A DNA stretch of 64,000 nt from Lepisosteus oculatus. Its lineage: Eukaryota; Chordata; Actinopteri; Semionotiformes; Lepisosteidae. The stretch covers positions 4,969,284 to 5,033,283 of the forward strand of contig NC_090712.1 in the NCBI RefSeq assembly GCF_040954835.1, given 5' to 3'. The stretch's first letter is position 1; each line of letters begins with the position of its first letter. Both the position numbers and the translations under genes were made by a program. The notes beneath the pieces are model-generated. The model did no database searches. It was not told the DNA's origin and was given only the letters and a program-made list of their open reading frames with translations. Positions 36,311 through 59,500 of this stretch are shown piece after piece.

Positions 36311-36371
36311 TTACCTCTGGTCCTTCAGAAGCATTCTGAAGTTATGAAGTTCTTTTATGCTGGTGGAGAGC
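36311..36371 (-). CDS. ero1b: ero1b terminal coding exon 16
   Basis: A 61-bp exon after acceptor TTTCCAG: completes an Arg codon, then [19 protein letters not shown] and TAA at 36311-36313. Confidence 0.9.
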
Positions 36372-36562
36372 CTGGAAAGAGAACAGAGAAAGAAAATCCC
36401 AAAAACAGATGGCAAAAGGAAAAGTCAAGGTAATGAAGACATGGCGTTAAAATTTTTTTTTTAAATTAAAAAAAATCAACCACTGGATTATAATTTGCTT
36501 GTTTTATTTGGCTCACGATGACGTATCTTTAACATTTTCTTTCATTCGGTTTTTCAGGTTTT

Positions 36563-36602
<40 letters not shown>

Positions 36603-39600
36603 TAGCATAGTAAAGGTGTCATTTTCAGGTCCACATTAACCTAAGTGTTTACTAGGAAGAAATTAGCTTTTGGACAAATAGCTGCTCTTGTACTGTCAAC
36701 ACTCATTACTGTGGAAGTTAACAGCTCCCTCTTGTGACCAAGAGGGAGCTTTTTTCACCTCAGAATAAAGGCACTGCTAATGTAGCATACAATTAACAAG
36801 AGAGTACATTTTCACCCTGCTAAGTAACAGCTGAAACATACAGTAAGAAAAAACTGTGCTTGCTGTAGCTCACTGGCTTCCTGCATTTACAGAGAGCAGA
36901 CAAAATACAGGAGAAAAAGGAGAACAAAGGAGTTATACAGGACCGCTGTGAAACCTAAGGCAGGATCATTTAAAGGGAAGCTTGCAGTCTCCATTTCTCA
37001 GACTGGTTATTTAATCTCTGTAACAACATAAATTAATTGACGGTATCTGACAATTTTACAAATTTCGAATTAAGCACAAAAATCGTGAACTTTGTGAAAA
37101 TACTGTAAATTGCCATGTTGTCGCCAACTGCTGGTCTTGCCATGGGCAAGAGCAAGAGCTCACGGAAATTTTGACGTGAAGCGGCCCTTCCTGCTCACTA
37201 GTCACTGAAATGACTAATGTACTGTGATGCACTGCACAAGTGAATAAGTGCAGCCTGTGCAGCAGACACTTCACCGCAGAAATGTTCCAACGTGATCTGC
37301 ACGTGGAGTTAACAAGTAAGTGGTATTTGTCGGCAGAACCGTCTCGAAGTTGAGAGCAATAATTTGATTGGATTAAAAGAGATTCAGAAGCCTGCTTGTA
37401 CGATGTAATAAGGCTGCTTCACCTCGCCGCCTTGTTCAGAATCCCAGACAATGATGGCAGTATGGCGCTGGGCATGCCTGGAAATGTAGTGTTGTAAATT
37501 TTACACTTTACTGTTGAAGGCATTCAGAACTCATGCTTGTTATGATGTTATGTTACAAAATTAAATGAGCAAATTCTGCTAGATTTGTTTCTGTGCTCCA
37601 GGAAGTCAGGGTCTCATGAACGGTGGTATGGTTTTGCATCTTGTGTCAGATTTAGCTACATAAATCGGAAACAGGGACTTTGGCTGACTGCCAGCGTTGA
37701 CCACAATTAAACTGTCTTAACTGGCTGATTCTGGCAACAAACTGTTAACAACCAATCCTAAAAATGTATGCTTTTGTATGGAAATTTTGCTCATCTCCAA
37801 AAATGAAAGCCTGTTGGTGTCCTTGAGAAAATAGGTGAGAGGAAAGTTACTGGCTGCATCTGTTCTCCTTTTTTATCACAATACAGAAATTTCCATCTTG
37901 CTTTACAAGAGTCGTGTGGTTTTCTAAGAACGGTCTAGCACTGTGTACATTTCACTTTCACTGTAGTTAGAAATGCACTCATTAATGAGTTTCTCATCCT
38001 AAAAAATAAAAACAGCTTTGAAATTCCCCTTAAAGGGTAGCCAAGTGTTACAGATCTTACCTCCCAAAAGCATTCAGAAGAGCAACTACCTCCTGACGTG
38101 TGAGTTGAAAGCCTTTGGATGGGCTGTTCTCCGGAAGGTTTTTAATTTCTTTTTCTGAAAATAAAATCTTCAGCGCAGCGCCCAATCCCTGGGTCTGCAC
38201 AGAGAGAAACCCAACATTATTTGAGAAAACACACAAAGATCCTGCTAGCTTGACTCGTTTTCCAGCCTCTGAGAAAGAGAGGATGCCTCGGAACAGTGGA
38301 TCAGCACAGACAAGAAATTAGTTTTCACAAGCAGAACTAAACTGTTACCCAACACTAGATGTAAGAGCTGATCCATGCCACTGGAAAACAGTATTGCTTT
38401 GCTGCACGATCCAGGCTTGGGTTTGAGGAGAGATGTGCAAAAAGTAAATGAGAGTTCTTGAACAAGTCTTAATGTGAATATTCTGCTGAACTGCCAAAAG
38501 GTAGATACATTTATGTGGTAAGAGACAGAAACAAAGCATGCTGCTGCATTAGCCAATCGCATGCCATGCATGACCGGGAGGAACAAAGATGAATTGGCAG
38601 AGGTCACCCTGCACGAGAAAGAGATGATCATACCTGGAGCTTGCCCCACAAGCGGCACTTGCTGCAGCCGACACAGTCCATTATACGGGAGATATTCTTG
38701 AAATGGAGCCTGAACTCCTCCTAGGAAAACAGAAATTGATTCTGGGTTTTAGATTTACTTCTCTTATGGAAACAAACAGTTTAGGAGAACTCCAGTTGAG
38801 AGGGAGAGAAGGACAGATGAATTCATATTAAAAGGCACACTAACACTAGATAAGGGTATAGAATCTGTTCAGGGAGTTCCACATTTATGTTTTGATGAAG
38901 TTATGTACTGGAAGTATTTCTTACGAGCACAAATATTTAACACCAGATGCTAGGCAATTATTCAGACAGTAAGAACATAGCTACGGATGTAGATACAGAA
39001 ACCAAAATGCATTTGTTATAGTTATTTTTACAAGCAATGCAAATCCCTACACTCTGGTTTGCATAAAGAGCTGTGGTTTTCAAAATAATTTGTCGCTTGT
39101 TGTCTTAAAGTGGGGAACAGATGAGGATACACTAATGCTGTCCGAGTCTAAGCAGGCATTTATTTAATTTGTCTAATGAAGGTTACAGAGAAAAAGAAAA
39201 GCTGCCAGTACCACTCTGTGTAGTGAAAAACAGGAAATGCATCTCTGCCTGAATGACTGCAGTACACATTGAAGCAACAGAAACAGAGACTAGTCATTTA
39301 CAGAACCCTTTATTAATTATCTTCAGTGCCATACATAATTACTCAGTTTGAGCAATACCGGAGTCGTGTCTGTCCTGGGGTCAGAGAACAGAGAAACAGC
39401 AGGGAGATTAATTAAAACCATTTCTGTGCCCTTCTTGGTTTTTATTTTCGTCTAAACTCCGTCAGCAACAGAGGTTTCTGATGAACATGAATACTCTGCT
39501 TGTGCTGCATTAGGAGGGAATGTTCAGAGGGTTTAAACAGGTGAGTGATGCAAACACACCATCAATGCTCCGACTCAACCTCACTGCTGCCTGGCACCTG

Positions 39601-42600
39601 ACAGCCCTTTCTGACTGCTCCGTGACTAGACTTCATTTCTCGATGCCGAGGATTGAATAAACTTACCTTGAGCGTCTTTGCTTCCATTTTGTCTCCTGCA
39701 AACATGGACTTCTCATCAAAGTGCATGGGGAAAGCTCTGTTGAAAGATAATTAGTAACAGTGGCCAGTCATCCCTCCAGAATCTAGCATAGTGTAACAAC
39801 ATTCAATGCACTTCCGTATTCTTAAACAAGAAGGGCACACTGGCACTACTCTGTGGTGCAACATGTGAGACTTAAAATAAGAGAACTGAAAAGTAAAGAA
39901 ACATCACAATAGACTATCAATGGCTTAAACTAGTTTCCCCTTAATTACAGCTGTACATGGAGTGTGTATTGTGATGACGACAAGTGATAAGCTCGTTCCT
40001 TACTTCGTTTCATTGAGGATCTGCAACAACAGGTCCTTTGTCTCAGTGTCTTCCTGGGCGTTTCCTGTGTACAGGTTGACAATCGAACGCTCAAAGTATG
40101 GTGCAACTTTGGACAGCGCCCGCAGCTCGATTAAATACAGGAAGTACAAGTTTTTCAGCCTCCTCGGACCCTCTCCCTTGGTTTCGGCAGGATCGAACCG
40201 GTGGTGGAACTCCTTCACATTTGGTCCCCAGACAGTCTTACCCCAGCCCTCTGCAACACACAAAACAGCAGAGTAAAGTACAAAAAAAGCTCTTCCATGT
40301 GCTGATGCAATTCATCCGAACAAAAAAGAAAATGTTTTTGCCGTCCACTTACCATCTAGAAGGTGTTTTGCACAGAGGTGAATGTTGATGCTGCTGTGGA
40401 GTCCTGAGATCAATCTGTAGAAAACCCTCTTCTCGAGACACAGTCCTGTATGAGAAGAGAACAAGTTTGCAAAGAAACGAAGTTACATGCAAAATGCATC
40501 AACATCTCTCAATAGGTTTCACCTGCTCAAAAAGATGTAAATCACTCTATGAATTTCACATCAACTAATAGTTAACACTAGCAGACAAAAAGGCTACCTC
40601 TTTTCGTGTCATAAAATTAGTTTTAAGACTTTTACTGATTTACTAACTGAAGCATAACATACCCAGCCAAGTTCCAGAACTTTTAAACACCTAAACAATC
40701 TGCAGCTTCAAAAACACATCTTGCTTTACACAAAAGGAATGACAAAATAACTTTGGAAAAAGAAACCTTGTAGAATCCAAATTTGAATCAAGAGAGGATA
40801 AAAGATCTTGCATAAAACATAGATGTGATGTTTCCTAGTTTGACCAGAATACAAGGCGTTGGTGTGTGTTTGAGGTTCTATGGTTGTCTGAGTACAATGG
40901 GTCAGTGAGGCCATGCTTCTACACATAATGAGGTGAAGACAGCCTCTGTCTCATCTCCTTAGTTTCAGCTGAATGGGACAGAATGAAGGAATCGTCTGGT
41001 TCAGGTAATCCTAGCTCAAGGCTGGTGACATCACCTGTGCACAGGTAACTGATGTTCTCCCTTGGCTTAAAATAAAATAATTAATTTAGTAACCATATGC
41101 ACTACTAAGGATTAGTAGTACTAAGGACACAAGAAATAAAATAGCATTTTCACATATAAATGTATCATATTACTGTTAGTTTGGTAATGTACTGTATAAG
41201 AGCAGAAATTACCTTCTAGCCAGTTGTAAAATCCTTCACCTGTGTAAAGAAAATATTTATGTTATGCTTTATTTATTAAATCATGTAACCCAGAGAAGGA
41301 TAAAGATTTGAGAATTCAGAGGGCATCTGCCACTTAAATTGCCCCTGAATAAATTATTTTGAATTAAAGTGAAAATACATTTTCTACATTTGATTTAAAA
41401 TCTATTCATAATCTTGATACAACATGAAAACTGCAAGTGTTCATTCAGTATTTCATACTTTCACTGATGCTTAGACTACAGGTATTGGATATTGCAAAAC
41501 CAAATGTATCCAAGATAACTGCACATTTTCCAAATCGACTACTTAAATTTATTCACACCCTGCAAATCCACTCAATCTAGATATAAATACATGTATATTT
41601 AATGTCGTACAACTGTCTGAAGTTCTTAGCTACAGGTTAATAGTGATCACCGACTTTATAGTCAGCAATGGAAAAATGAAGAAATCCCAGTTTTGATTGT
41701 GGCGTCCGATATCCAGTTGTTCAAGGATAATGGGATAGTTGCTACCCCACCAGGAAGAGGATGAAAGTGCACTTTATCTAAATCTGCGGCTAGAGAAGTT
41801 GTCTGGGAGGTTAACTCGCACGCAAGGGTAAAAACGGCCTTCTCAAATCATCAGGATTAAATAATCCCTATGACTAGTCAATATTTTCCTATTTTAGACC
41901 TAAAGCCTAATTAGATTTTCCTGAGTCTTAATCAAAGAGGAAGATAACTCATCTGTGCTATCAGCCAGGTGCTACAGCAAATTTCAGATCAGCAACAAAG
42001 TTCTTTTTATTTTTTCTATATGCCTATGGGTAACTACTGAAATAGTAAACACTGGAGTATGAATATTTTTCATATATAACTAGAAAATATGACATTGTTT
42101 TGGGTTTTCCAATACTAATATTCTAATATATTTTCAGTTTTCATTTCTGTAACAAACTGTGAATGGACACTTGCATTTTGTTCTTGCTAAGACCGGCTTT
42201 ACATTACCAGCAGTTACATTATATAAAGGGCATGTGGAGCCACTGTGTAATCATAGAGGTAGCAAAAACATGGAAACTATTATAATATGATAGACTGTAT
42301 AGCTGTGTGTTGGCATTAAAGAAAATAAATATTCTTACCGTCATCATCGCCTAAAAGAAAAAAAAAAGAATCTTACAAACACATCTCCAGCACAAGAATG
42401 ACAAAAAGTCCACATTCACACAAGTACTGCGCAAGTGTAACTGCGTAAGAGGTTTGCACTCACTTTTCTTATGCTTAAGTGACACTTAATTCCTGACAAG
42501 ACCAGGGCGAGTGGCGTCTGTTTTAATTCTGCTGTGTGGCCAACTCCTGACATTTCAGCCAGAGGAGCACAGAGAAGAGCACACTCACAATCTCACTCAT

Positions 42601-45600
42601 CCCTCTCTTACCTTTGCTTGGAGCCAGTGGATTAAGGGGACGATACACGGATCGAGGCCTGGAGAGAGAGAGACAGCCATTCAATCCAGCGCATGCTTTC
42701 CAGTAACTAGGTGGAAAGCCTAAGAAATAAAGTGAATTTGTTTCCTCACTTGAAGCAGTTTTCCTCGTAGATGCTGTTCCACACCCGCCATGCGGACGGG
42801 CCCTTGTACCCAGTGTAACGCTCAGGGTTCAGACGTAGGTCGACGTATTCTGCATCAGGCGAGGTCTCATCTGAAGAACAAGAACGGTCAGCCCCTGTCT
42901 TGACTGTCCCTGGTCAGTCAAGAGAAACAGCTGAGAGGCACGGAATAAAAACTTTGACAGTCGGAAAATTAAGCTGCAGCCAACCTATGGCAACTTTTTT
43001 GCTTGTCCAAAAAGTCTCCTTTCTTCACTACAACAGTAACCCACTAATTACAACTACAGCTCCACATTTGCGCAATGTTAAAATTTTAATTTAAGCAGTG
43101 TGATGTAAAAAAAAAAATTCTACCATAAAAAGTTATCCAGCAAGACAATTCATGTCAGGGGCACTGCTTCAAAATCAAAACTCCTGGGAAGACTAGCAAG
43201 ATGTTTTAGAGGCACTAAGGTACAGCTTTCGAATGTTAATTGTCTTCCTTAAGCTTTTACGAGAGTTGTTGTTGCCATTTAAAAAAAAAAGTTTCTATCT
43301 TTTTCTTCGTAATCGATCAAGAGGCGGACATTACCATCGAGTTCACAGAAATGGTCCTGTGCATCATCATGCCTAGCCCAATCTGCGAAGGCTTCTTTAC
43401 TCTGGTTGCTGAAGAAAATAAGTTTTACAAATAAACAATTTAGTAGAATGATACACTGCATGAGAATCTCAGGTTTGTGTTCTTAGGAGTAGCACTGATC
43501 TCAGGGCTCCCCATATTTAATTTTAGCATCAGCAACCACAGATTCTAACATGTCAGAGTCCACAAAACTATACGTTTCTCCTCTTATTTTGCTGTTCTAG
43601 TGTTAACGTGTGCAACAGGGTATGGCAAAACCACAAAACACAGCAGCTTCACCAAAAGGCAGAATGGAATAATGTCCCTGCTGCAAATCAAAGCACTTCT
43701 CTGGTAAATGGAGAGAAAAATTGCTGTTGCCACATCAGCAATCATCTCAAGGATGAAATGGCAGCAAAATGCAACTCAAGTGCAGGAATAAGTGCATGAA
43801 TGCATCTGAAGACCTGCAACAGTCCAGTGCTACCACTCCTCAGTACGAGAACGGTAGCAGCACACCATTCTGAGAAAAACACTGCCAAGCCAATTAATGT
43901 CTGTGAATGAGATTTTAAATATTTTAGCTAATGTACATTTACTTCCTTCAGCTTTGAAAGATGGAAGAATTCCAAAAAGATGTACATTTCTCATCATGTG
44001 AAAGATGAATTGATTTCCTGCAATGCCTCTGATGTATTTATTTATCAAACCACTTTAAATATTTATATATGCTCGGCAGCAGCAGAGAAACAGCATGACT
44101 GAAGTCTACACCAAAAGACTTTTTAATGTTCACAGAACATTTTAAAACTGCTTTTTTTTAAAATAAAGAACACTGTCCACTGCTGTTCTGTTTTGAGCTC
44201 AATGCTCCAATCAACATTAAATATTCTAATTCAACAAGGTAAACTTAAGATTTTCACCGAAAATATTTACTGTAGTTACTCAGTTTATTCCACATGGACA
44301 AAACGATTGGGACTTGTTAACAAGTGCTGTACCACTACAGCGTTCTCTTACCTCAGTGTGCTATTTATTGCTCCAAGTTCATGTGCCTGTTCACAGTCTT
44401 CTATTTCCTTAATTGCATTCGCCGCCTGGGAATACTACATCAAAACAAACCAAAGCAAATTGAGAGCGTTATCCCACAAAGAGCTGGTTTGTTAACCCAT
44501 CGACAGCTGGGGGGGAATCGCAGCAAACTGAAAGGAAGATGTCAGAAGATAATTCCATCCATGTCCTTTCAAATGGAAGAGCAGATGTTCCTAATTATGA
44601 CCTTACAGGTTTAGCATAATCATTAGGTAACACACGGGCCTGCTCCCGCTTGGCCTGACTGGCAAAGGAACTTGCTTTGAGGGCAGGTAGATTCGCGTGG
44701 CCTGGATCCGAGCTTGGGACAAGCCGCAAGCCGACGAAGACCCGAACAGGCAGCGCACTGCCAGGGCTAGGGTGGGGCTCCCAGCGAAGGAGTGACCCCT
44801 TCCCAGGCTCCTCCACTCTCACAGTGACGTCAGCTCTGAGCCTCCTGTGCCTCAGGAGTACAAAGATGAACAGTTCACTAGGTGAGTGTGCAGGAGGTTT
44901 GCCCTTCAGGTGTGGGCACAGCCTCCCTGCTGGTTGTTGGGTTTATAGTGAAAAACTAACTGGTATTCCTATATTTTGAAGACTATTTTGTAGAACTATC
45001 ATATAAGGACCAAGTCAAACTTCATTAGGTGGTGAATTGAACTTGCTCAAAACAACACGCTCATATACTACAGCACAGCATAATCTACTGATGGTGAACA
45101 CAAAAACTGGCCAGCTCTGCAAAGTAACCACACCATTCTGCATTACGGGATATCTGAAGAACGGCACAGACTCCAACTATAGTCTGGACTGACAGCTGGA
45201 GAGAAGGCCGATTTAGAATGTTTTGGCTAGCAGATCTTGTTTTGACAGGTGGAGAACATCTTCCTGCACTCCTGTCATGAACCAGATTCTCAGAGGACAG
45301 GTTGGCACCCAGAAGACAGGCGATCACAACACAAGCTTCCAGCAGGCCTCACCTCCCACAGCCCTTGGAGACTGCCTCCTAGATCACAGAGCCTGGCCAG
45401 ACTAGCTCCGGCTGGCAATTTTTCATTCAAATGTTCGAATGTGATCCGAGGGTGTGAAAGGACTCCACAAACTGGCTGTAAGGACATTGCTGGGCTCCAC
45501 GGGCATTTTTCCAGGCCACCTGAGACCTGAGGAAGGCAGCACAGGTTCCTCTATAGCAGTGCTTCACAAGTCTGGTCCTAGCGACGCACACCAAGATTGA

Positions 45601-48600
45601 GAACCACTGCTCTATAGCAGCCTATGTAGAGAACAAAGTCAAATATTGAGCTTCCTTGCTTAGTGCTGTGTGTCACCACCGAGAACTGGAACTAAAGGAG
45701 CAACCAGAGAAGGTGCTATTTTACACTACTAACCCTCATGTTAAGCCTTGAACCAGGCCTCTACTGACTATACTTATAAAGTTATAAAGACATTTTTAAG
45801 GGGATATCATGACAGATGAAAATTGCCTCTGGAGGCCTGTGACACATAGAAGTACTAAAAGGTTAAGCCTACACAGAGAAATTCCCAGCAAATTGTGTGC
45901 TCCTCACCTGAGTAAGTACCCTTCACAGAAATTACTTTTGTCATCCAGGGCACTTTACAATGGGGGCATAATAACTTCTTAAAGAGCAAAAGAACAACCT
46001 GGGGTTCTGAAATAATGCTACGCTAATAAAACGGTTCTATAAAGTTCAGTGAAAGTGTGAGAAAATTTTAATTTTTGTGCTGAAATACTTATGTTTCACA
46101 AACTTATGTTTTTAATACCTGTTTGTCCATTCAAGGAAAATGATCATCAGAACAGCTGATTTTTAATACCCTTAGCAACATGACTAGGAAAAAAAATCAT
46201 GAATCGAAAGAAATCAATACGAGGAGTGCAATCATAATTTAATGTCCATCCACTTTCCAATAATTCAGAGGCAGACATTTCGGTAATGTGGCAGATTCTC
46301 ACAGATAAACACTGAACTTTAGTTTTACGACGTTTTATTAACTGATACTCAGACAGTAGGGTAAAGTAGAAGTAAAATGTTCGAATGTGATCCAGTTGTG
46401 TGAAAGGACTCCACAAACTGGCCACTAAAAACAGTGCAATACAACTCCTGCCACAGGCAAAGTCTTCATGAGCTACATTAGCGTTGAACAGTACTGACAA
46501 GATACATGAAGCTGTGCTTTCAAGATTAAAGTTCTGATGAGCTGAGGGCTTGTTCTAGCCCTGCATATAACCATGGGGCTTTTAAAGTGTAGGGCTGCCC
46601 AGGCACCATGTATATGAACATCTCAAAACTCTTCATTTTTCATCACTGGACCAGGAAACATCTGAAAGAGAAACCAGCCCAAGCTGGTCCCTGTGAGCTT
46701 TTCATCAGTAAGATTAGTGAGCCGTGACAATGTCAACTCCACCTGCTGCGTATTACAGATTTACATACATATGCAGGACTTGATTCTGTCCAATATAGCA
46801 AGCAGGCTTACCGATACAGGCTGAACAGCAGGGTTTTGGGAACTCGGGAGCTGTCTAAACTTCTGATATGTATTCCAAGAAACTGAACCAACTTTCACAC
46901 TTTTTTTTTTACCAAACTTAAGTGCAGGGCTTCCACCCTGTGATATGATTCACCAGTAAAGGGGGAACATCTGTTTTCAGAACATGCAGAGCTCAGACTC
47001 ATCGGGAAGGACAAAAAGCTGTTACTCTAAAAGTGTGCAGCAACTGACCTTGAGTCTAAGCTGGCCAGATGTCCCCGTTCTTTGGCCCTAGCACAGGACA
47101 AACAAACCAGCACATTACAGGCAATAGACAAACAAACCTGTTCGGGGAAATGGACACTCGCATGCACTTTTAAGAAAGGCCACTTTCAGTATATTCAGTT
47201 AATAGGAAATGCCAGACCTTCAAGCTTATTTAAATGTAGATATAATCAGAATTCCCAAAATAGTACCCAAGTACCACGACAGGTAATATTGTGCTGCACA
47301 ACATGCCATTCATTGGTAGGCTCCTTAAACCAAGAACCAAACTACTAAGATCCCAGGACCTACTAAGATTCTGTTCTCAAGAACAGGGGTATTAACACCA
47401 GTGTCCCAGCTAACTCTGGTCTTGTATAGTCTGGCCTCCCCATACGTTCCTTTTAATTTAGCTGGTGAGACAATTTCTCACTCCTCCACCTAATGTGCTG
47501 TGTCGTAGGGCTGCTGGTGCATAATGGCTTCCACACGTTACCCAGGTTAAGCAATCTTTTTCAGTGCCAAATAAAATGGTTTCCTACCTACAGTATATGC
47601 AAAGCTTTAAGATTAAACATTAAGATTAAAGCACCTGTGGGTGAAAGGCACGGGTCTAAATACAAGGAGTGATTATGTTCACACTGTTCATTGTTTCTAC
47701 AGTTAGCAGCGAGTTTGCTTTCCCACATTTCCTGCTACCTGACACAGTGTAATACAGCACTGCTCTCCAAGACCACACTGAGCTTGAGCTGCTGTCATTC
47801 ACTCAGTCAGCTTCAACACACAGGCAATGCTGACAGCAACCCCAGACAAAGAGTGAGAAGCACAAAACCAGCTGAGAAAGAACAGTTCACCAACACCTGG
47901 CTCAAACACTAAAAATAGCCAGTTTCATTATTATACCTTTTCTCTGTTTTCCATAGGCTTAAAATATTTTTTTTTCTTTTCAAAGCCAACTGGTGTTTGC
48001 TGTACTTTATTAATATCATTAGAGGTGTTTATGGTTAAACTCCACAAAAAGACTTGCTTGTTAGTTAATTATCTGCCACAGCCATGTCTTTCTGCATTCA
48101 TTGTGAATACAATGAGCCCAAAACCAAGTCATATATGTTATATATGAGCACATATATGTTATAGATGAGCACAGAGACTGTTTAATGTCCAGTATTGGAC
48201 AAGATTTAACAGTCATCAAATTCTGCATACCCAAGATCCCTCCAAAGGGCTCTAAATACACAAGTTCAGGAACACCCCGCAAAATTGCTTTTCCCGACCC
48301 TAAATTAAATGCATATCCATGTAATATACAATGACTGAATAATACTACTACATAACAGCATAATTTGCTAAATTAAAATATTTAAAATAGTAATAAAAAA
48401 CAAGTATCAAAAACCAGTTGCCTTTGCATATAAATTCTAATAAAATCTGCATAGATTACTGCCCTGTGCCCTCACTTTGCAGTATGCAGTGAAGAGAACT
48501 TACTTTGTTGTAGTTTCCAGCTTTAATCCCAACTGGCACTTTACTCTGTCAACAGAAATATACAGCAGATTAGAGAAGGGAAATATTAATGTCAGACACT

Positions 48601-51600
48601 AGCTACATAGAACTGAAACTACCTTTGCGTGCAAACACTGGACAAAGTAATAATGAAAATATTAATAATGCATCATCTTTTCATACTGCAGTAATGTCTG
48701 TGCATGCTACTGAGAATATTTCATGACACCAGGCTGTAAATTTCAACAACTCTGTTCAACAGTATCAAAGGAACTATCAAAAATGAAACCTTTTTAAAAA
48801 AATAATGGTTCTGGGGAACTTTTAATCAAATGCATTTTTGTTCTTATGTGCTGTAGGCTTAATGAGCCAGTGCTCACTATCTTGTTTAATATATCTGTCT
48901 ATCTTGGCACATCTGTCTATGTATTCCAGCAGCACCGTCTCTCTCACCCAGAGCAAGCCTGAGTTTTTTCACTAGCGAGGAGACAACCGTCCAAGTCCGC
49001 TATTTGTTAATCAAATGGCCACCACAACCAAAACCCTGAGAAATTGGAGCACATGCAAATAAAAGGAGGAGGCGAACCTCGGGACAAGGCTCGACTTGGC
49101 AGTCCTTGATGGCACAGTGACTGTCGTCCGGCCAGAAGGGGCATGGGCGCTTCAGATTCACCTGCAGGAGAGGAGGAGGAGGACAGGGGGCATCGTTACT
49201 GGCTACACTCACCCCCCACCAAATCGGTACACCGAGACACGGAGAGCCACTGAGACAAGAGAGACACGGTTACACTGTGACGGACTGGTGTCCCATCCAG
49301 GGTGTATCCTGCCAGGGTTGGGCTCCAGCTCCCCGCAACCCTGAACTGGAAGGAGTGGTGAGAAAATGGGTGGATGGAGTCTGGGGTCAGCTCGTGTTCT
49401 CCCTGCCACCCTGTGTTTGGGCTCCACGCTGTTAAAAATCTGATTAAATGCCACGTGCAGCAAATGTGGCTGAGCTGCCCCACTGCCCTGGACTATGGTC
49501 CAGTTAGGAAGATGAAAAGTAAATCGGGGACAGGGGAACTGGGAGACCACAGGGCTAAAACCTACTGTGCATATACTGAAGAGACATGCAGTAAGTAATT
49601 TGGCTTAATAAAAATGTGGACATTTAAAAGAAGTGGGCAATGCACTTTAAGGTTAATACTTTAAACTAACATTTTCATGTTTAATCAGAGAATGACCATG
49701 TAATAGAGCAAGGGAGTTTTCACCTGATTCCAGCGGTTATCTCTTTCTTTTCCGAGCTGAATTCAGGCTCCTAATCTCCTGAACCACCTGGAGTCCTTGA
49801 ACAGCGGGTCAGCTGTCTTTTACACAGAGAGCTGTGAAAGTGGCTGACTGCGAGCTGCCAATTAAAACTGTACAGCACATCAAAAGGCTGGGCTGTGCAC
49901 AGAGGCCCTGCTTCACAGCCGGTAGCAACGGAAGTGTGTCAGACTTCCTTTTTCACTTCCACACCCTGCGGAGGAGCTGTAGAGCCCAACTCCCTTATAT
50001 ATTAATTATTTTGACATCAAAAATGGATAATCTTAATTTTCAGTGCGAAACTCTCTATGGGATGCGGACACTTTTTGTGATATGCAGTTTAAATGATAAA
50101 GTGTTATAATGACCAAAGCCTAAGATTTTTTTTCTTTTTCGTAACTGTGTAGCTGGGCGATATGGTGGGTACCATGGCTGCCTCGCAGTGCTGGGGCTCT
50201 GGGTAATATAGTTTAGGAAGAACATGCCTTTTGTTATCCACCCCTCCACTATCTCCCAAATCTTTCTGGCATAAAAAGGCTGTGAAGTTGAATGGCTCCA
50301 TCTTTCTGCCTGTATGAATTATTATGGAAAGGACCCATGCAGTCAATATGTAAATGAAATAAGCAGCCCGACCGCAACACTACCCCTGAACTAAGCCCAC
50401 ACAAACACATCTAGAGCACTGTGCGAGCTTGCTGTAGCTGAGCCGAATCTGTGCACCAGGACCTCTCTGCCTGCATAAGGGGTCAAACAAAGTCAACACC
50501 GCAGCACAGACAGCTGGGAAGCAAGGGAAATTAATGGTGCAGGTGAACCCCTCCTGCCTCGTCAGTAAACAAAGAACAACGTGTTGTGAATGTCTCAGTG
50601 TGAATTTCCAGAAACACAGAGAACACTGTCGAGTAGGATCCAAATGTGCTCATTCGGGCACGCGTAAAGTTGTATCAAGTATATTGTTGACGTGGCTGTA
50701 TTAGGCCCCTCCACCACTAAGCCTTAGACACACATCAAAAGACTGCAAAAGGAGGACGCTCACAGCAGCCCTCTCCTACTGTGCATAATGCAGCTATAAT
50801 GAGACCAATACCCCTGTCGTGCAGAAATATGACCTACCTGGTCTTAAAGACTATTGAGTGTAATGTTCTGGGGGACAGTGTGTTCAAGAGCTTTACACAA
50901 CTCCTGCAATCTGAAGACACCCCAGGATCTTTCAATAAAGCAGCACCTTTCATTGCGATTCTTACCTACTGCTAGAGAAGCACTGCAGCTTCCACTATTG
51001 TGCTCCAAGAGGTCTCCCTGTGCGATTGAATGAGCAGCGCACTAAAACTGCCAATACCCTCCTATTTACTCAGCCTTTTAAAACCTCACATTGTCTCCTC
51101 AGAAGTTAATCCATAACGCAGCTTATCATGTCTAACTCCTTGTTTGCAGCCTGGTTCGATTTTGCCATCATTTTCAAAGGTGCAGAAATGGCCTAACCCT
51201 CTCTTCAGCTTTCTAGTATAGACTTGACTTTTTTATAAACCTGCGATGAGGTATGGTTAGGCGGATTTTGTGTAAGAAAGTCAATCTCTTATCTGTACGT
51301 TTTTAAGATTTTTTTTCTGAATATTATACTTACCAGAAACTTAAATATGATATTATATATTTTATTATTATATAATATTTATATATAAAATAGATTTGTT
51401 TAGGGTTTGAAAACCTATAAAGATATTGCATAACGGGTGAAAAATTACTTATTTTGGTATTTTATGAACAATTTTAAAGACTAGCACAATTCAGCCCACA
51501 AAAAGAGATAAAATGAGAAAAGTGCAAAAAATACAGCAGTCTTAGCACTACAAAACCCTTGACTATGCTTGTTATGACGTCTACCACACTCAAGTCTATA

Positions 51601-54600
51601 CCAGTTTTTTTCTGACACCATGACTTTTAGAAGCCTGCTTCCACAGCACCCTGAAATCTTTCAGGATGCTAATTTTGGGTCTCTGTGGAGAATTTCTATT
51701 ACAATTTACTGTGGAATACCATGGCAAGGACACAGCCATGTGGAGTAAAACACAGAAAAGTATGGGATGAGGCATGAGACAGACTGAGAAACCACAGAAA
51801 ATATATGACAAACATGGTGAAGCTACTACAAAACTGCTAACAATATCCTGCATGTTTATTCATATAGACAGGACATTTTGCTCTGTGTAATGCAGGGATC
51901 CCCAATTCTGGTATAGGAGTGCTTGTGTTTATATGGGTTCCAGTCCAGCTGTGCTTGTAACATCCTGAATCAGCTCGTTATTGATTTAATCGATCCAGTT
52001 TATAAGCTGCTCCCTGCTCTTCAGGTGCTGGTGCTTTAAACAGACTTTAAATAGACTGGTGCACAGATACTGGACCTAGAGGAGCTGGACTGGGGACACC
52101 TGTTATAGAGACTAGCCCTACCAATTAAAAAAAAAAGTAATGTAAACTAAGCAAAAAGGAGAACATGGGCTTATGCGATTTTGAGCAAACAAAAGGCTGC
52201 AGCTACAGTTACATCCATGCATCTGTCCAGCATGAGTATCTAAGCAATAACCGGTTGTGTAACAAGATCGCGGGGGAGTCCATGTCTGTCCAGAGTGAGG
52301 GGAGGACGATACAGCTGCAGCACCAGTGACTTCTTCATGTCATGGTCTACAATAATTAAATCTAAACGAGTTACAAAAGGGCAAGGATCCCAGGGACAAA
52401 AAATGTGTTTTAGCCCATAAAAGGGTAACTAGTTACTAGAGAACTAGTTGCGAGAACCTCATCCACAACAACAAACACAAAAAATGAATAAGCCCATTTT
52501 GCTTTGTTTTTTTTAATTGGGTTAGGACAGATCTTTGAAAAGAAACACAACAGAACCTATTTATCTCCCCACCATGGAAGTGTAAAGAGCACTTAGTGGC
52601 TTTGCCAGAGATTTAGACTGGGGGGTGGGTGACAGGAACCCAAACTAAAGCCGTGTGTATAGTAAATTTGACCCATTTGAACTCATTTTATTTCAAACTC
52701 CATGAAATCCGATTTCATCAAAAGCCTTGGAAAACACTGCACGTGAAATTTAAAGCTACAGTATGCTGTTGTGGGTTTGTTTTTTTCCCTCGCAGAAGCA
52801 CATTATACCAAACATGTACCTGACAGGCAGACTTACTCTGTAGTATCTGAAGTAGTCTCTCTCCGTCAGTTTTTGAATCCTTGGGTAAATCTTGAAGTTG
52901 TTGAAGACGTCAATGCTCTCTATGTCACAGAAGCAGTCATCCAAGACACCTGTCAGCTAGAAAACACCAGACAGGGCTCACAGCAAGACTCACCACACAG
53001 CATCAAAACAAAAAGGACAAAATGTCTCTCAAAAAACAGAACAAATTTAAAAACCCATCTCTACTGTCCGTAGACCTGGCACTAAACACAGAATTATTAA
53101 ACTTCCCTCTACCAACTATTCCCCAGATTTACAGTCTAAGCATAAAAACCTGTTGTGAAACCAACATTAAGGTCTGACGATCGCAATCAAGGATAAGATA
53201 AGGCTGCATCGTGGCTGATGTGAAAAACAGCGCTGATACTAGACTTCCTGTCCTCACATACGTTTCACAAACCACCAAGTATTGCACTGCTTCCTTAAGC
53301 TTGTTTAATTCACTCTCTGGTAACTGGTTTCGTGCTGTCAAGAAAGATCAGGGCCGACATGTTTGGGGGTAAAATTGGTGCTGCTAACTTTAATTCGTCA
53401 GCATTCATCACCCGCCACGGTCTCTCGAGACTTGACCGCCAGTAGAACAGGTCTATGAACTCGGAATCGGGGCCTGTGGCCTGACAGGACTGCAAAGCCA
53501 AGTCCAAAGACATCGGCAGACTGCAGAACTGGGGCGGACACGGGCCGGACCTCAGCTCTTAAAGGGCCAGATGTGAACTGTGTGCCTCGGCCATATTCGA
53601 GGTGCGCACTCTCTCAGGAAAGCGTTCCTTTGCGGGAACGAGACAAAAAAATGGGGCTTCCCAACACATGAATTAAATGTTGTTGTTTTTTTAAAAAAAA
53701 GCTCAAAACAGTTTTTGTAAGTTGTAGCTGAATCATTATTATGTAAATGGATCTCAGGTATTATCCTTAAAAAAAATCAGACTGATAAACTGATGATAAA
53801 ACACCCTATACACACCTTGTCTAAATCAGTTGAAAACCGTATAACAGCAGAATATTTAATATACTGTGGGTACACAGAGAGACCTGTTGAAATGTAATAT
53901 TTAAGTGCAAGCGAGTAATACTTTCAAATTATTCATTATATGAATGAAATAAGCTCCTGATGTCTCCATAGGTTATCCACAATAACCTTTCTGTCCTATA
54001 CCTGCCACCTCTTAGTATTTGCAAACACTATTATGTATTTTACACAATGACAATGGATAAAGGATAGCATTGTAGCAGCGAAGTGACTGCGGGTTAGAGC
54101 AATAGGTTTTCCCCGTTTTATAAAAACATTTTAATATGATGTAAGCCATTTTATATGATTTCTAAAAAACTTCTGAGAGCACTTTAACAGTAAGGGAAAA
54201 AAGCACACAACGAGAGGAGACAGCAAACTGACACAATTACAATAAGAGTTTGCAATACAGTAAGAAAGCAAAGGGACAGAAACAGTTAAATAAAAGCCCG
54301 TCTAAAGAAGGTTCTGAGTTTAGATATGAAAGTGTTTAGGGAAAGAGACTCTCTGATATCCTTAAGGATAGAATTCCTGAGCTTTGGGGCGCAGCAAAAA
54401 AATACAGAAAATACACAGCATAGCATTACATAGAAAAAAAACACTTATTGCTCTACTATGTTCACGTAAAAAATTCCGAAGTGTCTCATTAGCAGGCGCA
54501 ATTTGAAAACTTAATATAGCTGATATCATTTAAACCGCAGTCAATGACAGGCTGAGAGAGGAAGAACGGGTTATATTTAGAAAGCAAGCATACTTTTAAG

Positions 54601-57355
54601 CGTGCTTTTCAGAAGTTCATTGTTACCACTTTAGAAGCAGAATGTTTCAGCAAAAGACACCGTAGCAAAGGTCTCTGACTAACCTCTGACTTGCACTGCC
54701 CGAAACAGACCATTAAAAACAGCGACCCCACACCCGACAGGGAAAGCGCTCCGCTCATTACGTAGCTGAGTGAGAAGGTACCCCTTTCTTTCTTCGGCAA
54801 ACGCGTTGTCAAGCGTTCAAAAGTTTAGGGTGATCTTGCATTGAGCAGCTTTCACTGCGAGCAAGCCACTTTTCCTTATGCATCCATGCAAATATTCCAG
54901 ACGCTACTCTGGTCCGTCCTGGCAGGGTTGTGCGGTGCCTGTCTATTAAGTGCTACAGCTACAGCCCAGGGCAGGTCGGAACTCACTCCCTGCCCCCTTA
55001 GTTGATAACCAAACCCCGCCTCCAAACAAAGGAGGGCTCGCAGCACGTGGAAACGAGCGGCACACCAAAAATGCATTCTGCGTCTTGTAGTCCGGTCTGC
55101 GTTTACAACCCGTTCCACCAACGGCATCTCTTGGAGAAACGGACTACAAGTCCCGCGCAGCCCTAGTGAGCGTCGTTATAGTGACCCAATCCGGATAGGC
55201 CACGCCGTTCTGTATCACGTGAGGGGGCGGGGAACATGCTCCTACTTTCAAAAACCCGACTGAGGTTAATGTTTCCTGTTTTCAAAAAAAAAGTTAACGA
55301 CCTTTAAAATTTCGCCGAATGTTAATAGCATACTTCTTCCTCGTATAATAAACAATAAAGGCGTGGCGATAAAGTGAAATTAAAAGGGACCTTTTTTCCT
55401 TTCATTATAACGTGCTGCAGTGTAGGCTACCCATCGAAATGAAGAAGTTATGCATTACATATATACATTTTTCTGATTGTTAATGTAACCTTACGGAGGC
55501 AAATTACTTGGTTGAACCTTTTGGAGTCCAGTTTAAATATGTCCCTAGCCAGTGCCTGCAGTCGATCAAGGACGTGCTCTAAAAAGATGCACATGAGGTG
55601 ATCAGACAAGGAATAGTACAGAGGAGAGAGAGGGAGTGAGAGAGAGAGAGATCAGAGCAAAGAGACACGATGTCAAAATCTCAGTTACATAGGTGGTCTG
55701 ATTATTCTATTGCATAACTGTAATATTTGTAACCAGTTTTTACAAATAAATGTGCCTTTAAGTATGTGGATATTTTGAGTAATCAACTATAAATGATTTC
55801 AGGAAACATTCAATACATGTATAATCATTTAGTTATTTTAATTGAACATTCCGGCTTCTAAATAAACCCGGCAGACTCTGGGACCTCCACGTACTGAAAA
55901 ACCTTGATTTTCAGTGACCAGCAAAGGGAACGTCGTCTTATATTAATTTACCGCCGTGATGGACACGTGCCCTTCCTGTCTGTGCGTTTGAAAATACAGC
56001 TGATCATTACAGCCACTATAGTTCAAGTTCAAGTCTATTTGTCAGTCCAGCCATATACAAGTCTACAGGGGAGCGAGATATCGCTCTACAGGTCTACGGC
56101 GCGAATAGACAAGACATTGACAGGGTAAAGTGCAACGTGCATAGTGCAAACCAAGACAATATATTTAAACCAAGACAAAAACATCCGATTTGCAAAACCA
56201 CAGCAATTTAGGTTTTAGAAGTGTCAGCTGTTGAAAGACACGCTGATCTGTTTCCTAAAACAGACGGAGCGGTGGCACTGTGGCTAAGGATCCTAATGCA
56301 AGAAATTGTATATGGCTAATAAAGTGATCTTATCTCTTAAATCACAGCTAGTAAACAGCCCAAGTAGCGTTATTTGTTTTCCAGTTTGACAACTCCCGAA
56401 ACAGAAAGGGCATATCATTGCAAAAACGCAGACACCCCTTAGGAACCGAATTAAAAACTATTTATCACATGCAAGTTATAAAAAAAAAGATTTAAAAATT
56501 GATTTTTGTCTTGCAGAAAGGTTATAAGAGGTACCCTGTCTCTAATGTCACCCGCAACTAAAAACTGTATTAGAACCGCTGATATACGAGACGCATTAAT
56601 GTGAGACAATTAGCTGATCAGTTAGCAAGGAGGCCTTATAACACCTGTGGAACCAGAATAATAAGAGCTCATGTCAAATCTGCCTAGTCAGCAGTTGCTG
56701 TGTTCAAATCAATACATGGCATATAAAAGACAGAGTCTACAATTGCAAATCGACTGTAAACAGCAGAGAGGACTCAAATTGTGTTTTTTCATTTGCCGTC
56801 TTCAACAGTGGCTTCCAAAAATAACATATATATATATATCTTAATTATAATAGGTATCTAACTTGACTTTTATTCAATGCGTATCACTAGGTTCGCAAGA
56901 GGCGAAGGGATGCGGGAAAATACTAAGAGAACTACAGTAAATTGCCTGACGTCTAAACCAAAAAGACAAGCTTCCTTAGAACGAAGGAAACTTAATGATG
57001 ATGATAAAGAAACCCGACTGGAATCGAGAAAACGGAATACAATTTTATAACATGCCAGCACAACATTTTTTGGTGCATTTATATGACGTCACATTAAGGA
57101 GACAGTGGAAAATGCCAGAAGTTTAAACGGCCAGGCTTAAAGGACAGTTTTGAAAGTCTGGTAACATCCTCAAAGATATTAACCCCCATTTATACTTACA
57201 TGACAAAAACAGCTTTGGTCTAGGTTATCGAAAGGTGAAACCCTGCCAGCAGATTCGCTTCGTTGCCTCTCGTTCAACCAGCCCAAAACCAAGTCCCCAA
57301 CGAGCAACCACAGGAAAAAAGATATCCCTCCGATCTGGGTCGTGATTTTTAGCAT
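36311..57355 (-). CDS. ero1b: ERO1B, endoplasmic reticulum oxidoreductase 1 beta
   Basis: Complete sixteen-exon gene. ERO1B is an ER-lumenal FAD enzyme that reoxidises protein disulfide isomerase using O2, driving disulfide formation. With the distal first exon the product is 485 aa; with the proximal one it is 458 aa. Numbering for the long form: signal peptide about 1-25; CFC (50-51 region) and CFCDIES early; shuttle cysteine pair C113-C118 (CQVEPC); [45 protein letters not shown]; and inner active-site cluster C408-xx-C411-xx-C414 (CVGCSKC) followed by RLWGKLQTQGLG. The features [21 protein letters not shown] and [11 protein letters not shown] assign it to ERO1B rather than ERO1A. All phases close exactly (1302 nt for exons 2-16). 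The gene lies tail-to-tail with gpr137b. Confidence 0.96.
36568..36602. repeat. (AAT)n microsatellite
   Basis: About eleven AAT units in ero1b intron 15. Confidence 0.85.
36723..36750. repeat. 12-bp perfect hairpin
   Basis: AGCTCCCTCTTG and its exact reverse complement flank the loop TGAC in ero1b intron 15. A T-run follows on the plus strand. It is probably the end of a small repeat. Confidence 0.8.
38061..38194 (-). CDS. ero1b: ero1b exon 15
   Basis: A 134-bp exon encoding [19 protein letters not shown], then [20 protein letters not shown] and LNAFG. It matches the ERO1B C-terminal region closely. The donor is GTAAGA. Confidence 0.94.
38634..38720 (-). CDS. ero1b: ero1b exon 14 (CxxCxxC active site)
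   Basis: Twenty-nine codons, [20 protein letters not shown], then KCRLWGKLQ, carrying the inner active-site disulfide that reduces FAD. The acceptor is TTTCCTAG, the donor is GTATGA, phase 0 at both ends. Confidence 0.95.
39667..39736 (-). CDS. ero1b: ero1b exon 13
   Basis: A 70-bp exon encoding [20 protein letters not shown], then TLK. The acceptor ends CAACAG and the donor is GTAAGT. The preceding Lys codon is split across the joint. Confidence 0.92.
40004..40250 (-). CDS. ero1b: ero1b exon 12
   Basis: The largest internal coding exon (247 bp), encoding [18 protein letters not shown], the highly conserved [20 protein letters not shown] and [13 protein letters not shown]. The acceptor is TGTTGCAG and the donor is GTAAGG. 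Confidence 0.95.
40353..40445 (-). CDS. ero1b: ero1b exon 11
   Basis: A 93-bp exon encoding [20 protein letters not shown], then [10 protein letters not shown]. LISGLHxSIN is an ERO1 signature near the flavin. The acceptor ends CTGTACAG? no: it reads CATACAG followed by GAC; the donor is GTAAGT. Confidence 0.92.
41213..41239 (-). CDS. ero1b: ero1b exon 10, 27-bp exon
   Basis: A 27-bp exon encoding EGFYNWLEG across both splice joints, acceptor TTTACACAG, donor GTAATT. FYxWLEG is conserved in the family. Confidence 0.88.
42339..42350 (-). CDS. ero1b: ero1b exon 9, 12-bp microexon
   Basis: Twelve bases (GCGATGATGACG) between acceptor TTCTTTTAG and donor GTAAGAAT. Spliced in, it gives ...[18 protein letters not shown], matching the acidic GEDDGE stretch of ERO1B. 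It is a multiple of three, so skipping keeps the frame. Confidence 0.82.
42612..42658 (-). CDS. ero1b: ero1b exon 8
   Basis: A 47-bp exon encoding [15 protein letters not shown], acceptor CTCTCCAG, donor GTAAGA. Confidence 0.93.
42750..42870 (-). CDS. ero1b: ero1b exon 7 (FAD-region core)
   Basis: A 121-bp exon encoding [20 protein letters not shown], then [19 protein letters not shown]. The YTGYKG and AWRVWN residues belong to the conserved ERO1 core around the flavin. The donor is GTGAGG. Confidence 0.94.
43335..43408 (-). CDS. ero1b: ero1b exon 6
   Basis: A 74-bp exon that completes the Ser codon and encodes [17 protein letters not shown] and FCELD, a segment typical of ERO1B. The acceptor is TTCTTCAG and the donor is GTAATG. 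Confidence 0.93.
44352..44434 (-). CDS. ero1b: ero1b exon 5
   Basis: An 83-bp exon: [16 protein letters not shown]... to ...INSTL plus two bases. The acceptor is GATGTAG. Another AG nine bases further in (TTCCCAG) is also in frame and would drop YSQ. The longer form aligns without a gap to ERO1 relatives. The donor is GTAAGA. Confidence 0.9.
44435..48503 (-). other. ero1b: ero1b intron 4
   Basis: A 4.1-kb intron. It has a CpG-richer patch (about 44640-44870) with a palindromic TGACGTCA (about 44824-44831). It also contains two copies of a 48-bp segment (45429-45476 and 46375-46422). No exon was recognised. Confidence 0.7.
48504..48545 (-). CDS. ero1b: ero1b exon 4
   Basis: Fourteen codons ([14 protein letters not shown]), phase 0 at both ends, acceptor TTGACAG, donor GTAAGT. 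It matches the KIPVGIKAG segment of ERO1B. Confidence 0.9.
49078..49161 (-). CDS. ero1b: ero1b exon 3 (shuttle cysteines)
   Basis: Twenty-eight codons, [13 protein letters not shown]... to DCQVEPCPE, holding the outer CxxxxC pair that passes electrons from PDI. The acceptor is CTCCTGCAG. The donor is the weak GTTCGC, with no better alternative keeping phase with exon 4. Confidence 0.92.
49225..49390 (-). repeat. Fish-type dispersed repeat, reverse copy in ERO1B intron 2
   Basis: The reverse complement reads CCATCCATTTTCTCACCACT, then CCTTCCAGTTCAGGGTTG and CAGGATACACCCTGGATGGG. This is the 5' half of the same family as the copy at 31505. It lies just upstream, in transcript sense, of ERO1B exon 3. 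Confidence 0.65.
51893..52102. mobile_element. Non-autonomous hAT-like MITE in ero1b intron 2
   Basis: A roughly 210-bp element with imperfect terminal inverted repeats. The left end is CAGGGATCCCCAATTCTGG; the right end in reverse complement is CAGGTGTCCCCAGTCCAGC. The CAGG..TCCCCA style fits hAT ends. No 8-bp target duplication was found, so the exact edges are uncertain. Confidence 0.6.
52837..52956 (-). CDS. ero1b: ero1b exon 2
   Basis: Forty codons, phase 0 at both ends: [16 protein letters not shown]... to ...ERDYFRYYR. The acceptor used is TTTTCTAG. A second AG seven bases downstream would break the frame. The donor is GTAAGT. Confidence 0.93.
54684..54758 (-). CDS. ero1b: ero1b candidate proximal first coding exon (1b)
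   Basis: Twenty-five codons from ATG 54756-54758 to donor GTTAGT, phase 0, so it joins exon 2 in frame as ...QCKSE then LTGVLDDC. It resembles mammalian ERO1B, where ...EAQ precedes VTGVLDDC. The hydrophobic run [11 protein letters not shown] fits a signal peptide. It lies just downstream of a GC-rich promoter-like region. It lacks the CFC pair of exon 1a. Expression is inferred, not seen. Confidence 0.6.
55071..55095 (-). promoter_or_regulatory. ZNF143/Staf-type site
   Basis: The reverse complement reads GGACTACAAGACGCAGAATG, then CAT. It matches the ACTACAA...CAGAATGC form of the ZNF143 site with a few differences. It faces the second site at 55141. Confidence 0.55.
55141..55162 (+). promoter_or_regulatory. 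ZNF143/Staf-type site, second copy
   Basis: GGACTACAAGTCCCGCGCAG keeps the ACTACAANTCCC half of the ZNF143 consensus. It lies in opposite orientation to the 55071 site, about 45 bp away. Confidence 0.5.
55186..55204 (+). promoter_or_regulatory. ero1b: ER stress response element (ERSE), exact match
   Basis: CCAAT at 55186-55190, nine bases, then CCACG at 55200-55204: the exact CCAAT-N9-CCACG consensus bound by NF-Y with ATF6 or XBP1. It lies about 430 bp upstream of the exon 1b start codon. ERO1B is a known unfolded-protein-response target, so both site and gene agree. Confidence 0.75.
57200..57355 (-). CDS. ero1b: ero1b distal first coding exon (1a)
   Basis: Fifty-two codons from ATG 57353-57355 (context GTGATGC, G at -3) to consensus donor GTAAGT, phase 0. 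It encodes a hydrophobic signal peptide ([13 protein letters not shown]) and a linker ending DQSCFCH. Joined to exon 2 it reads [15 protein letters not shown], which parallels the ERO1A N-terminus (RCFCQ, then VSGYLDDC). Confidence 0.8.
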
Positions 57356-59500
57356 CACGGATCCAAAAGAATAATTAAAAAGCACGACAGAAAGCTTTCC
57401 AATAACAAGAACAAAAGTATCTCAGTTCCACCTTAACAAACACTCCAGAAGAAGGTGGGCATCGTGTAACACAGCACTGTCGCAAAGGAAGCGATATAAA
57501 ACTAGAAATTTCGCGCAAAAACTAGTCTTTTATTGCCCAATATCATCAGTAAAGATACCTTTGAATCGAAATTGGCGAACGCCTATAAAATAAAGCTAAC
57601 ATAGGCAATACGGGTGCACCACACACATCGTCTATTGTCCAGCGCAACCGTGTTTATATTTTGGTTTCGAGATAGATGCGGACTGATCTCCTGAGCCAGC
57701 GGGAAGTAATGAGAGACGGGCCGGAGTGTTACGCGTGTGGAGTCCAAGGGTACTAGTGCCCCCTACAGGCGAGTGGAAGAGTCAACAGACTCAGCATCGT
57801 ACCTGAGATCTCAGGTCTGGCAGCCTCTCCTGGCTCCGCCGGCTTCTGGAACGAAGGAGCAAAAATGTCTCCATAAACTATTCACAGGTGTATTTGTACA
57901 GGCGTCATTCACTTCCTCTCCAACTCTCCCCTCTTGAAAACGTTGAATAAGTTATTCAGCTTCAGAACTACCCTGCTGTTTGCAAACCTGTAGTGTCCCA
58001 TTAAGCTTTCCAAAAACATGAAAGCATTGTTAGACTTATTTGTAGCTCAATAATTAAGGAAACAGATGGTTGAGATCAGTAGATTGATCAATAAACTACC
58101 AGACATTGAACAAAAAGGTGGAGGTGGAGTCCTCCTGTTGTAACCCTTTAAAATGTTGCTAATTCTGTCTTAAGAAGGTTGCTATTATCTCACAGCCTTG
58201 TCCTCAAGGATGCAAATGCAATGAACTGCCCTAATTCATGATCTTAACAATGAGAACTGAACACTTTAAAGACTGACGACCGCTGATTTGTTTTGTTTTT
58301 CCGAAATACTTTCCAGACAAGGACATACAGCAGCACCTAACAGTTGAAACTATTCCCTGGCTTGAAGATCAGGCCAATCATATAAATTGTGGAATTCAAA
58401 AGGCAAGGAGACATAATTCCAAAAATATATAGTGACCAACAAGAGTGTCAGAAATATTCAATTCGCCACCAGAGTCCTGACTTTGTCCAAGAATTAAACT
58501 GGAATTCATTGCAATGGACTTACCTCTGTATAGGAATTTTAAAACAACGACCATATCCATTAACCCTTTCCTGTCAGAGACCCAAGACATATAGAATGAG
58601 TTATATTCTGAGTGCATATCCGACATTCCCTGTGATATTAGCGGCCACTTTCCACATCATATCGGCCTTCTCATGGCTTGAAAGCCATTGATGCAGGTGG
58701 GGGTCTGGCTGTGTTTCTATGTGATAACTCTGTGAATTAACTAAAACAAGATACAACACAACTGGGTATGTATGGATGGAATTTGCACCCCTTTAACACA
58801 GATGTCAATGTTTGCAGAATCCATAATTTGCACCTGCTGTTGTTCCTGAACTTGAAATAGACTACATCTTCACAAAATTAGCTTAAGTAAAGTTTAACAG
58901 CTATCCCCGAGAAAAATATGACCAACCATATTGAAAAATACTTATTCCGTGCCACCATGCTGCCCTATATATGAATTATATCAATTAAAAAAAAAACTGT
59001 AGTTACATTTTTGCCAGGAGACAATTACTTCAGCTGTATGGATGTGGACTGTGGGAGAAACACAGAGTAGCCAGAGTAAACCCACACAAACCCAGGGAGA
59101 ATACACAAACTCCACACAGCTAGCACACCAAGGCCCCAGCACTGCAAGGCAGCATTGCTGACCACTGCTCCACCTACCAACATACTACCCTCTAGAACAT
59201 CTGCTCCTAAAAAATAATTATCACGCTCTTGTTTTTAAACATTTAGCAGTGCTGCTCTTGTGCTGCATTTCCTTCAAAGGAGCTGGCCTGATGCTTTGTA
59301 GGGTCCCTGGGCTCAACACAGGTCCTGCAGATTCACCGCTGCTTTGCCCTAAACATGCATCTCCACAGACCTCTCAGGGAAAGTTTTCAAGCTCCTGAAA
59401 TAATCCGAATAATCTCTAGTTCATGCCAGAGAAGAGCAACATGTCGAGGACTGAGATGGTGTGCCTCAGGTTTCGTCTCTGTTCTCAACACAGCGCTACC
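57356..59500. other. Upstream flank of ero1b exon 1a
   Basis: The possible distal promoter is AT-rich to about 57650, with CCAAT at about 57536-57540. A mildly GC-richer patch follows at 57640-57860. No exon of a neighbouring gene was recognised. Confidence 0.5.
59030..59185 (+). repeat. Fish-type dispersed repeat, 3' part
   Basis: It contains GGACTGTGGGAGAAAC, CAGGGAGAATACACAAACTC and the CCCAGCACTGCAAGGCAGCA end, colinear with the 31505 family. Confidence 0.55.

Follow-up and report, generated by a model that had tools for sequence, protein, structure and literature searches.

A 64 kb window of the Lepisosteus oculatus genome, the whole stretch of DNA analyzed here and part of contig C17, carries an ERO1 gene on its minus strand. 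Searches by tblastn with human ERO1A and ERO1B queries placed the gene from 52956 down to 36314. The ERO1B query outscored the ERO1A query in nearly every shared exon block (184 versus 140 bits for the largest); the block at 42892-42749 was level (81.3 for ERO1A versus 80.1 for ERO1B), and the last exon scored equally with both (29.6 each). Spliced N-terminal pieces of the gene matched the Pfam ERO1 family (PF04137) above the cut-off. With an ERO1 domain and a closer match to ERO1B than to ERO1A, the gene has two of the properties expected of an ERO1B orthologue. An exon-wise search of the 1.2 Gb genome with Pfam ERO1, in which only the best candidates were scored so that the counts are lower bounds, gave at least nine matches at two loci: at least four on contig C17 and at least five on contig C8, where a second ERO1 locus on the minus strand is ERO1A.

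The common exon 2 of ERO1B (52837-52956, minus strand) starts at 52956 in phase 0, is directly preceded by TTTTCTAG, and carries the partner cysteines at the positions of human Cys46 and Cys48. It is followed on the same strand by the common exon 3 (49078-49161, ending in PCPE) and by the remaining coding exons, which span 36314-48545 and are supported by the Pfam ERO1 matches on the contig. Exon 3 was located by tblastn and the remaining exons by tblastn with the human ERO1B query, and all of their borders were read from the sequence. Exon 3 seemingly ends at a weak donor, GAG/GTTCGC (49072-49077; score -0.23).

Upstream of exon 2, also on the minus strand, are two candidate coding first exons, whose coordinates, frames and donors were given in an earlier note on this DNA and agree exactly with the sequence. 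Exon 1a (57200-57355) encodes 52 residues, a leader followed by DQSCFCH, and ends at the donor CAT/GTAAGT; the candidate exon 1b (54684-54758) encodes 25 residues, a leader ending in GQCKSE, and ends at the donor GAG/GTTAGT. In each, an initial ATG opens the sequence of a hydrophobic leader, and the coding part stops in phase 0 at a donor that could be used, matching the phase-0 exon 2. Two candidate exons of ERO1B thus carry an ATG and a donor whose phase suits a common exon, the arrangement expected of alternative first exons, and the open reading frames (ORFs), donors and exon 2 phase support the proposal in the earlier note of two in-phase candidate first exons for one gene.

The minus strand from 60000 to 52957 was scanned for ORFs running from an ATG to a phase-0 donor with a score of at least 2, donors being scored with a matrix of general splice-donor base frequencies. 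Five candidates at four donors were obtained, with 1a ranked first (donor score 4.53) and 1b second (3.46) by donor and leader hydrophobicity. Dinucleotide shuffling of the same region (200 shuffles) gave a mean of 0.015 donors of 1a quality and 0.05 of 1b quality, and in the real sequence of the window, 4 of 18 segments of 7 kb had matches of 1b quality. Across the whole 64 kb on both strands, five matches were found at the 1b thresholds, namely 1a, 1b and three others, which we take to be exon 1 of NID1 and two membrane exons of GPR137B; Pfam assigned no families to these three pieces.

Two other relationships between the exons were considered and set aside. Inclusion of 1b as a cassette exon behind 1a, by way of the acceptor-like CAG TTCTCACTCAG ending at 54766, would lengthen the message by 82 bases and put it out of frame, and was rejected as a coding option. 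An origin of 1b as a duplicate of 1a is unsupported, the two sharing just a 9-base match (E 0.053). In a check for repeat origin, neither 54500-55600 nor 57100-58000 was found a second time within the window.

By CpG content, each first exon is beside a promoter-like region of its own. Four CpG-rich stretches, defined by 20 or more CpG per 400 bp together with an observed/expected (o/e) ratio of at least 0.85, were found in the 64 kb, and two of these are at the ERO1B first exons, one at each. Putative promoter a (57321-57960) overlaps exon 1a, and putative promoter b (54781-55520), which has the highest CpG count and o/e ratio among the four, starts 23 bases upstream of the 1b ATG. Of the remaining two, one is at the presumed NID1 exon 1 and the other (9521-10100) about 0.8 kb upstream of it. 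With an o/e cut-off of at least 1.0, five stretches were obtained, again with both ERO1B first-exon regions (54961-55600 and 57201-57880) and with one (18521-19300) near the presumed GPR137B start.

Inside the 1b CpG stretch, 428 bp upstream of the 1b ATG, is a CCAAT-N9-CCACG endoplasmic reticulum (ER) stress response element (ERSE) at 55186-55204, on the plus strand and therefore in reverse orientation relative to ERO1B. This places the element near a putative promoter, as expected of an ERSE-controlled gene. It is the sole match in the window, even allowing one mismatch, and shuffled windows gave a mean of 0.03 matches (3 of 100 shuffles with a match), a count that is post hoc, the element having been spotted while reading the region and then counted. 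No match to ERSE, ERSE-II or the unfolded protein response element (UPRE) was found at the 1a CpG stretch. ERSEs act through NF-Y together with ATF6 or XBP1s. Ten bases from the ERSE is a TCACGTGA palindrome (55215-55222), present as a single copy in the window, which we take to be similar to an E-box or coordinated lysosomal expression and regulation (CLEAR) element. Separately, intron 1 holds a palindromic cAMP response element (CRE), TGACGTCA, at 57084-57091, about 110 bases beyond exon 1a.

The ERO1A gene of the same genome provides a comparison for exon 1a. Its exon 1 (C8:13550555-13550659, minus strand) reads MRFKLKLFVLLGSLLCLHTSQDFYPGSAEHRCFCQ or is two residues longer, ends in RCFCQ and is followed by the donor CAG/GTAAGG, and its exon 2 starts VTGHLDDCTCD. 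The ERO1A intron is therefore at the identical residue, and in the same phase 0, as the junction between 1a and exon 2 of ERO1B. In addition, the 1a peptide scored above 1000 of 1000 shuffles in a comparison with human ERO1A exon 1. These results bear out the earlier suggestion that 1a is ERO1A-like, and given the shared intron position and phase, 1a appears to be a real exon, the simplest view being that it is the start exon that both genes inherited from their ancestor. A chance reading frame was rejected for 1a because of the match to ERO1A; for 1b it stays a rival explanation. In other respects the two loci differ. In ERO1A, exons 1 and 2 are separated by only about 600 bp, in which no second start exon was found, unlike in the ERO1B intron with its candidate exon 1b, and no ERSE or ERSE-II was found in the 40 kb around ERO1A, unlike at ERO1B; the same 40 kb has two UPRE matches at least 14 kb upstream of ERO1A exon 1.

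We compared the N-terminal cysteines by their positions relative to the exon 1/exon 2 junction. In isoform 1a, in human ERO1A and in ERO1A of the same genome, cysteines are found at -4, -2, +8 and +10, with the same spacing to the exon 2 C-X-C, such that nested disulfides can form. Isoform 1b has cysteines at -4, +8 and +10, a serine at -2 and an extra cysteine at -8 in the leader, whereas human ERO1B has cysteines at +8 and +10 only. The four cysteines needed for nested N-terminal disulfides are thus present in 1a and incomplete in 1b. The earlier claim that only 1a has the Cys-Phe-Cys (CFC) pair holds, with the correction that 1b retains the cysteine at -4, in register with the first cysteine of CFC. 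Whether this residue is kept in the mature 1b protein depends on the signal cleavage site; by a simple small-residue rule, cleavage is possible after residues 20, 22 and 24, among other sites.

For human ERO1A, the disulfides described are Cys35-Cys48 and Cys37-Cys46 (PMC4354306). Since each of these joins an exon 1 cysteine to an exon 2 cysteine, exchanging 1a for 1b breaks both nested pairings as read from the sequence, and the swap should remove both nested N-terminal disulfides. This differs from the view in PMC4354306, in which one disulfide is lost and the inner pair is kept. Our reading that both pairings are broken uses human ERO1B for the mammalian comparison only and not for the window locus.

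Together, these features make it likely, in our judgment, that two promoters drive ERO1B, that each has a coding first exon of its own joined by splicing to exon 2, and that the ERSE-bearing promoter b gives an output that shifts with stress. We infer that both promoters fire and that b is stress-induced. Promoter a would give the ancestral ERO1A-like N-terminus, in which CFC pairs with the two exon 2 cysteines to form two nested disulfides, and promoter b would give a short N-terminus unable to form the nested pair. Signalling by ATF6/XBP1 would then move output toward an enzyme without nested N-terminal disulfides. The N-terminal region has been proposed to be inhibitory (PMC4354306); if so, the enzyme might also behave differently, with 1b as the more active form under high folding demand. 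In this way a single gene could supply two N-termini, the older one with the cysteines and another lacking them, the latter possibly under the control of cell stress.

Several observations weigh against this model. CpG content is an imperfect promoter mark here, as neither list of stretches takes in the presumed start of GPR137B near 20 kb, and the 428 bp between the ERSE and the ATG may exceed the usual distance of such elements from the transcription start. Exon 1b is short, its leader has no Lys or Arg ahead of the hydrophobic core, and its donor has a T at +3; of 13 downstream donors scored, just 5 were weaker. When the 40 kb around ERO1A were scanned at the 1b thresholds, the donor of ERO1A exon 1 came up together with one further, unexplained donor, so the scan by itself is no proof of 1b. 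Finally, five upstream ATGs are found within 450 bases of each start codon (54759-55208 for 1b and 57356-57805 for 1a, minus strand). Depending on the transcription start, these ATGs could also open upstream reading frames.

Among the alternatives, the one that survives best is that 1b, as a start exon, is specific to its lineage and not related to the first exon of mammalian ERO1B, which would be compatible with two promoters and at odds with the evolutionary scenario discussed below. We consider this a serious possibility, though less likely than not. The earlier note had likened 1b to mammalian ERO1B, and this stands for the missing pair but not for the sequence: the similarity of the 1b peptide to human ERO1B exon 1 was equalled by 77 of 1000 shuffles, which is not significant, and that to human ERO1A exon 1 by 216 of 1000. 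The likeness to mammalian ERO1B is one of the missing pair and the promoter, not of sequence. A scan of prokaryote contigs confirmed no relatives among 38 pattern matches. Against a lineage-specific origin, signal peptides diverge fast, making weak similarity uninformative, and three features fit the mammalian gene as published: the absence of the second cysteine, the phase-0 junction and the ERSE.

Alternatively, 1b could be a real start exon with a tissue-restricted promoter that is free of ER-stress control, making the ERSE match incidental. Mammalian ERO1beta is tissue-restricted (PMC3971451), and the ERSE was noticed by reading before it was counted. However, the element is unique in 64 kb up to one mismatch, with 0.03 expected, and the mammalian orthologue is reported to be a target of ATF6 and XBP1s, with ERO1beta induced by XBP1s and ATF6alpha (PMC3971451) and ERO1B induction reduced without ATF6 (PMC5798892). 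We regard this alternative as rather unlikely. Less likely still is that only 1a is real and that 1b is a chance frame beside a CpG-rich intronic enhancer, the ERSE serving the promoter of 1a from a position about 2 kb downstream of it. In favour of this are the ancestral and better-scoring status of 1a, the weaker 1b donor and the unexplained match in the scan around ERO1A. Against it are the rarity of 1b-quality donors in shuffles (0.05 per 7 kb), the start of 1b just 23 bases past the CpG stretch that has the highest count of the four, and its place downstream of the ERSE, as expected of a first exon.

If ERO1B is indeed transcribed from two promoters, the locus also bears on how the N-terminus evolved. 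ERO1B is described as having four N-terminal cysteines in fishes and sharks, as in isoform 1a, and two in birds, reptiles and mammals, with a single N-terminal cysteine in the Japanese ricefish and with legend and text disagreeing on amphibians (PMC4354306). That paper attributes the two-cysteine form to cysteine loss with life on land and assumes one N-terminus per gene, its sole use of the word exon concerning CD4. The arrangement in Lepisosteus oculatus suggests instead that exon 1a was lost and 1b retained, a gene with both start exons offering a route by exon loss to the two-cysteine ERO1B. The fuller proposal, which we advance tentatively and hold as possible rather than probable, is that under ER stress ERO1B changes over to a promoter whose first exon does away with the two nested disulfides at once, and that the amniote gene arose by loss of 1a while keeping the stress-controlled 1b, rather than by cysteine mutation as published. 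Were this true, animals with both exons would represent the intermediate state. They would also provide, in one natural gene, both N-termini on one identical catalytic body, a ready test of the role of the N-terminus with stress as a possible switch.

Elsewhere in the window, a NIDO domain at 1023-1403 on the minus strand marks NID1, and an exon at about 20 kb on the plus strand resembles what we take to be GPR137B. The human gene order NID1, GPR137B, ERO1B may be present here as well. Among the titles and abstract openings listed in literature searches, none described a pair of first exons for ERO1B; these searches did not extend to most subscription papers or to genome annotations, and both isoforms may already be included in public gene models.

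Comparison with known ERO1 proteins places the two isoforms differently. Isoform 1b shares the missing CFC pair with amniote ERO1B and differs from human ERO1B, which has no exon 1 N-terminal cysteine, by the in-register cysteine at -4; the amniote gene is induced by ATF6 and XBP1s in mammals, and the ERSE at 1b would fit a similar induction here. The conservation of cysteines gives a further point of reference, as Cys35, Cys37 and Cys46 of ERO1alpha are outside the conserved vertebrate cysteines according to PMC3971451. In its general layout, ERO1B would resemble other genes with alternative first exons and promoters, its two start exons joining a common exon 2 and altering the N-terminus. 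As a difference from the general kind, the exchanged exon here holds half of two disulfides, with the other half in the common exon.

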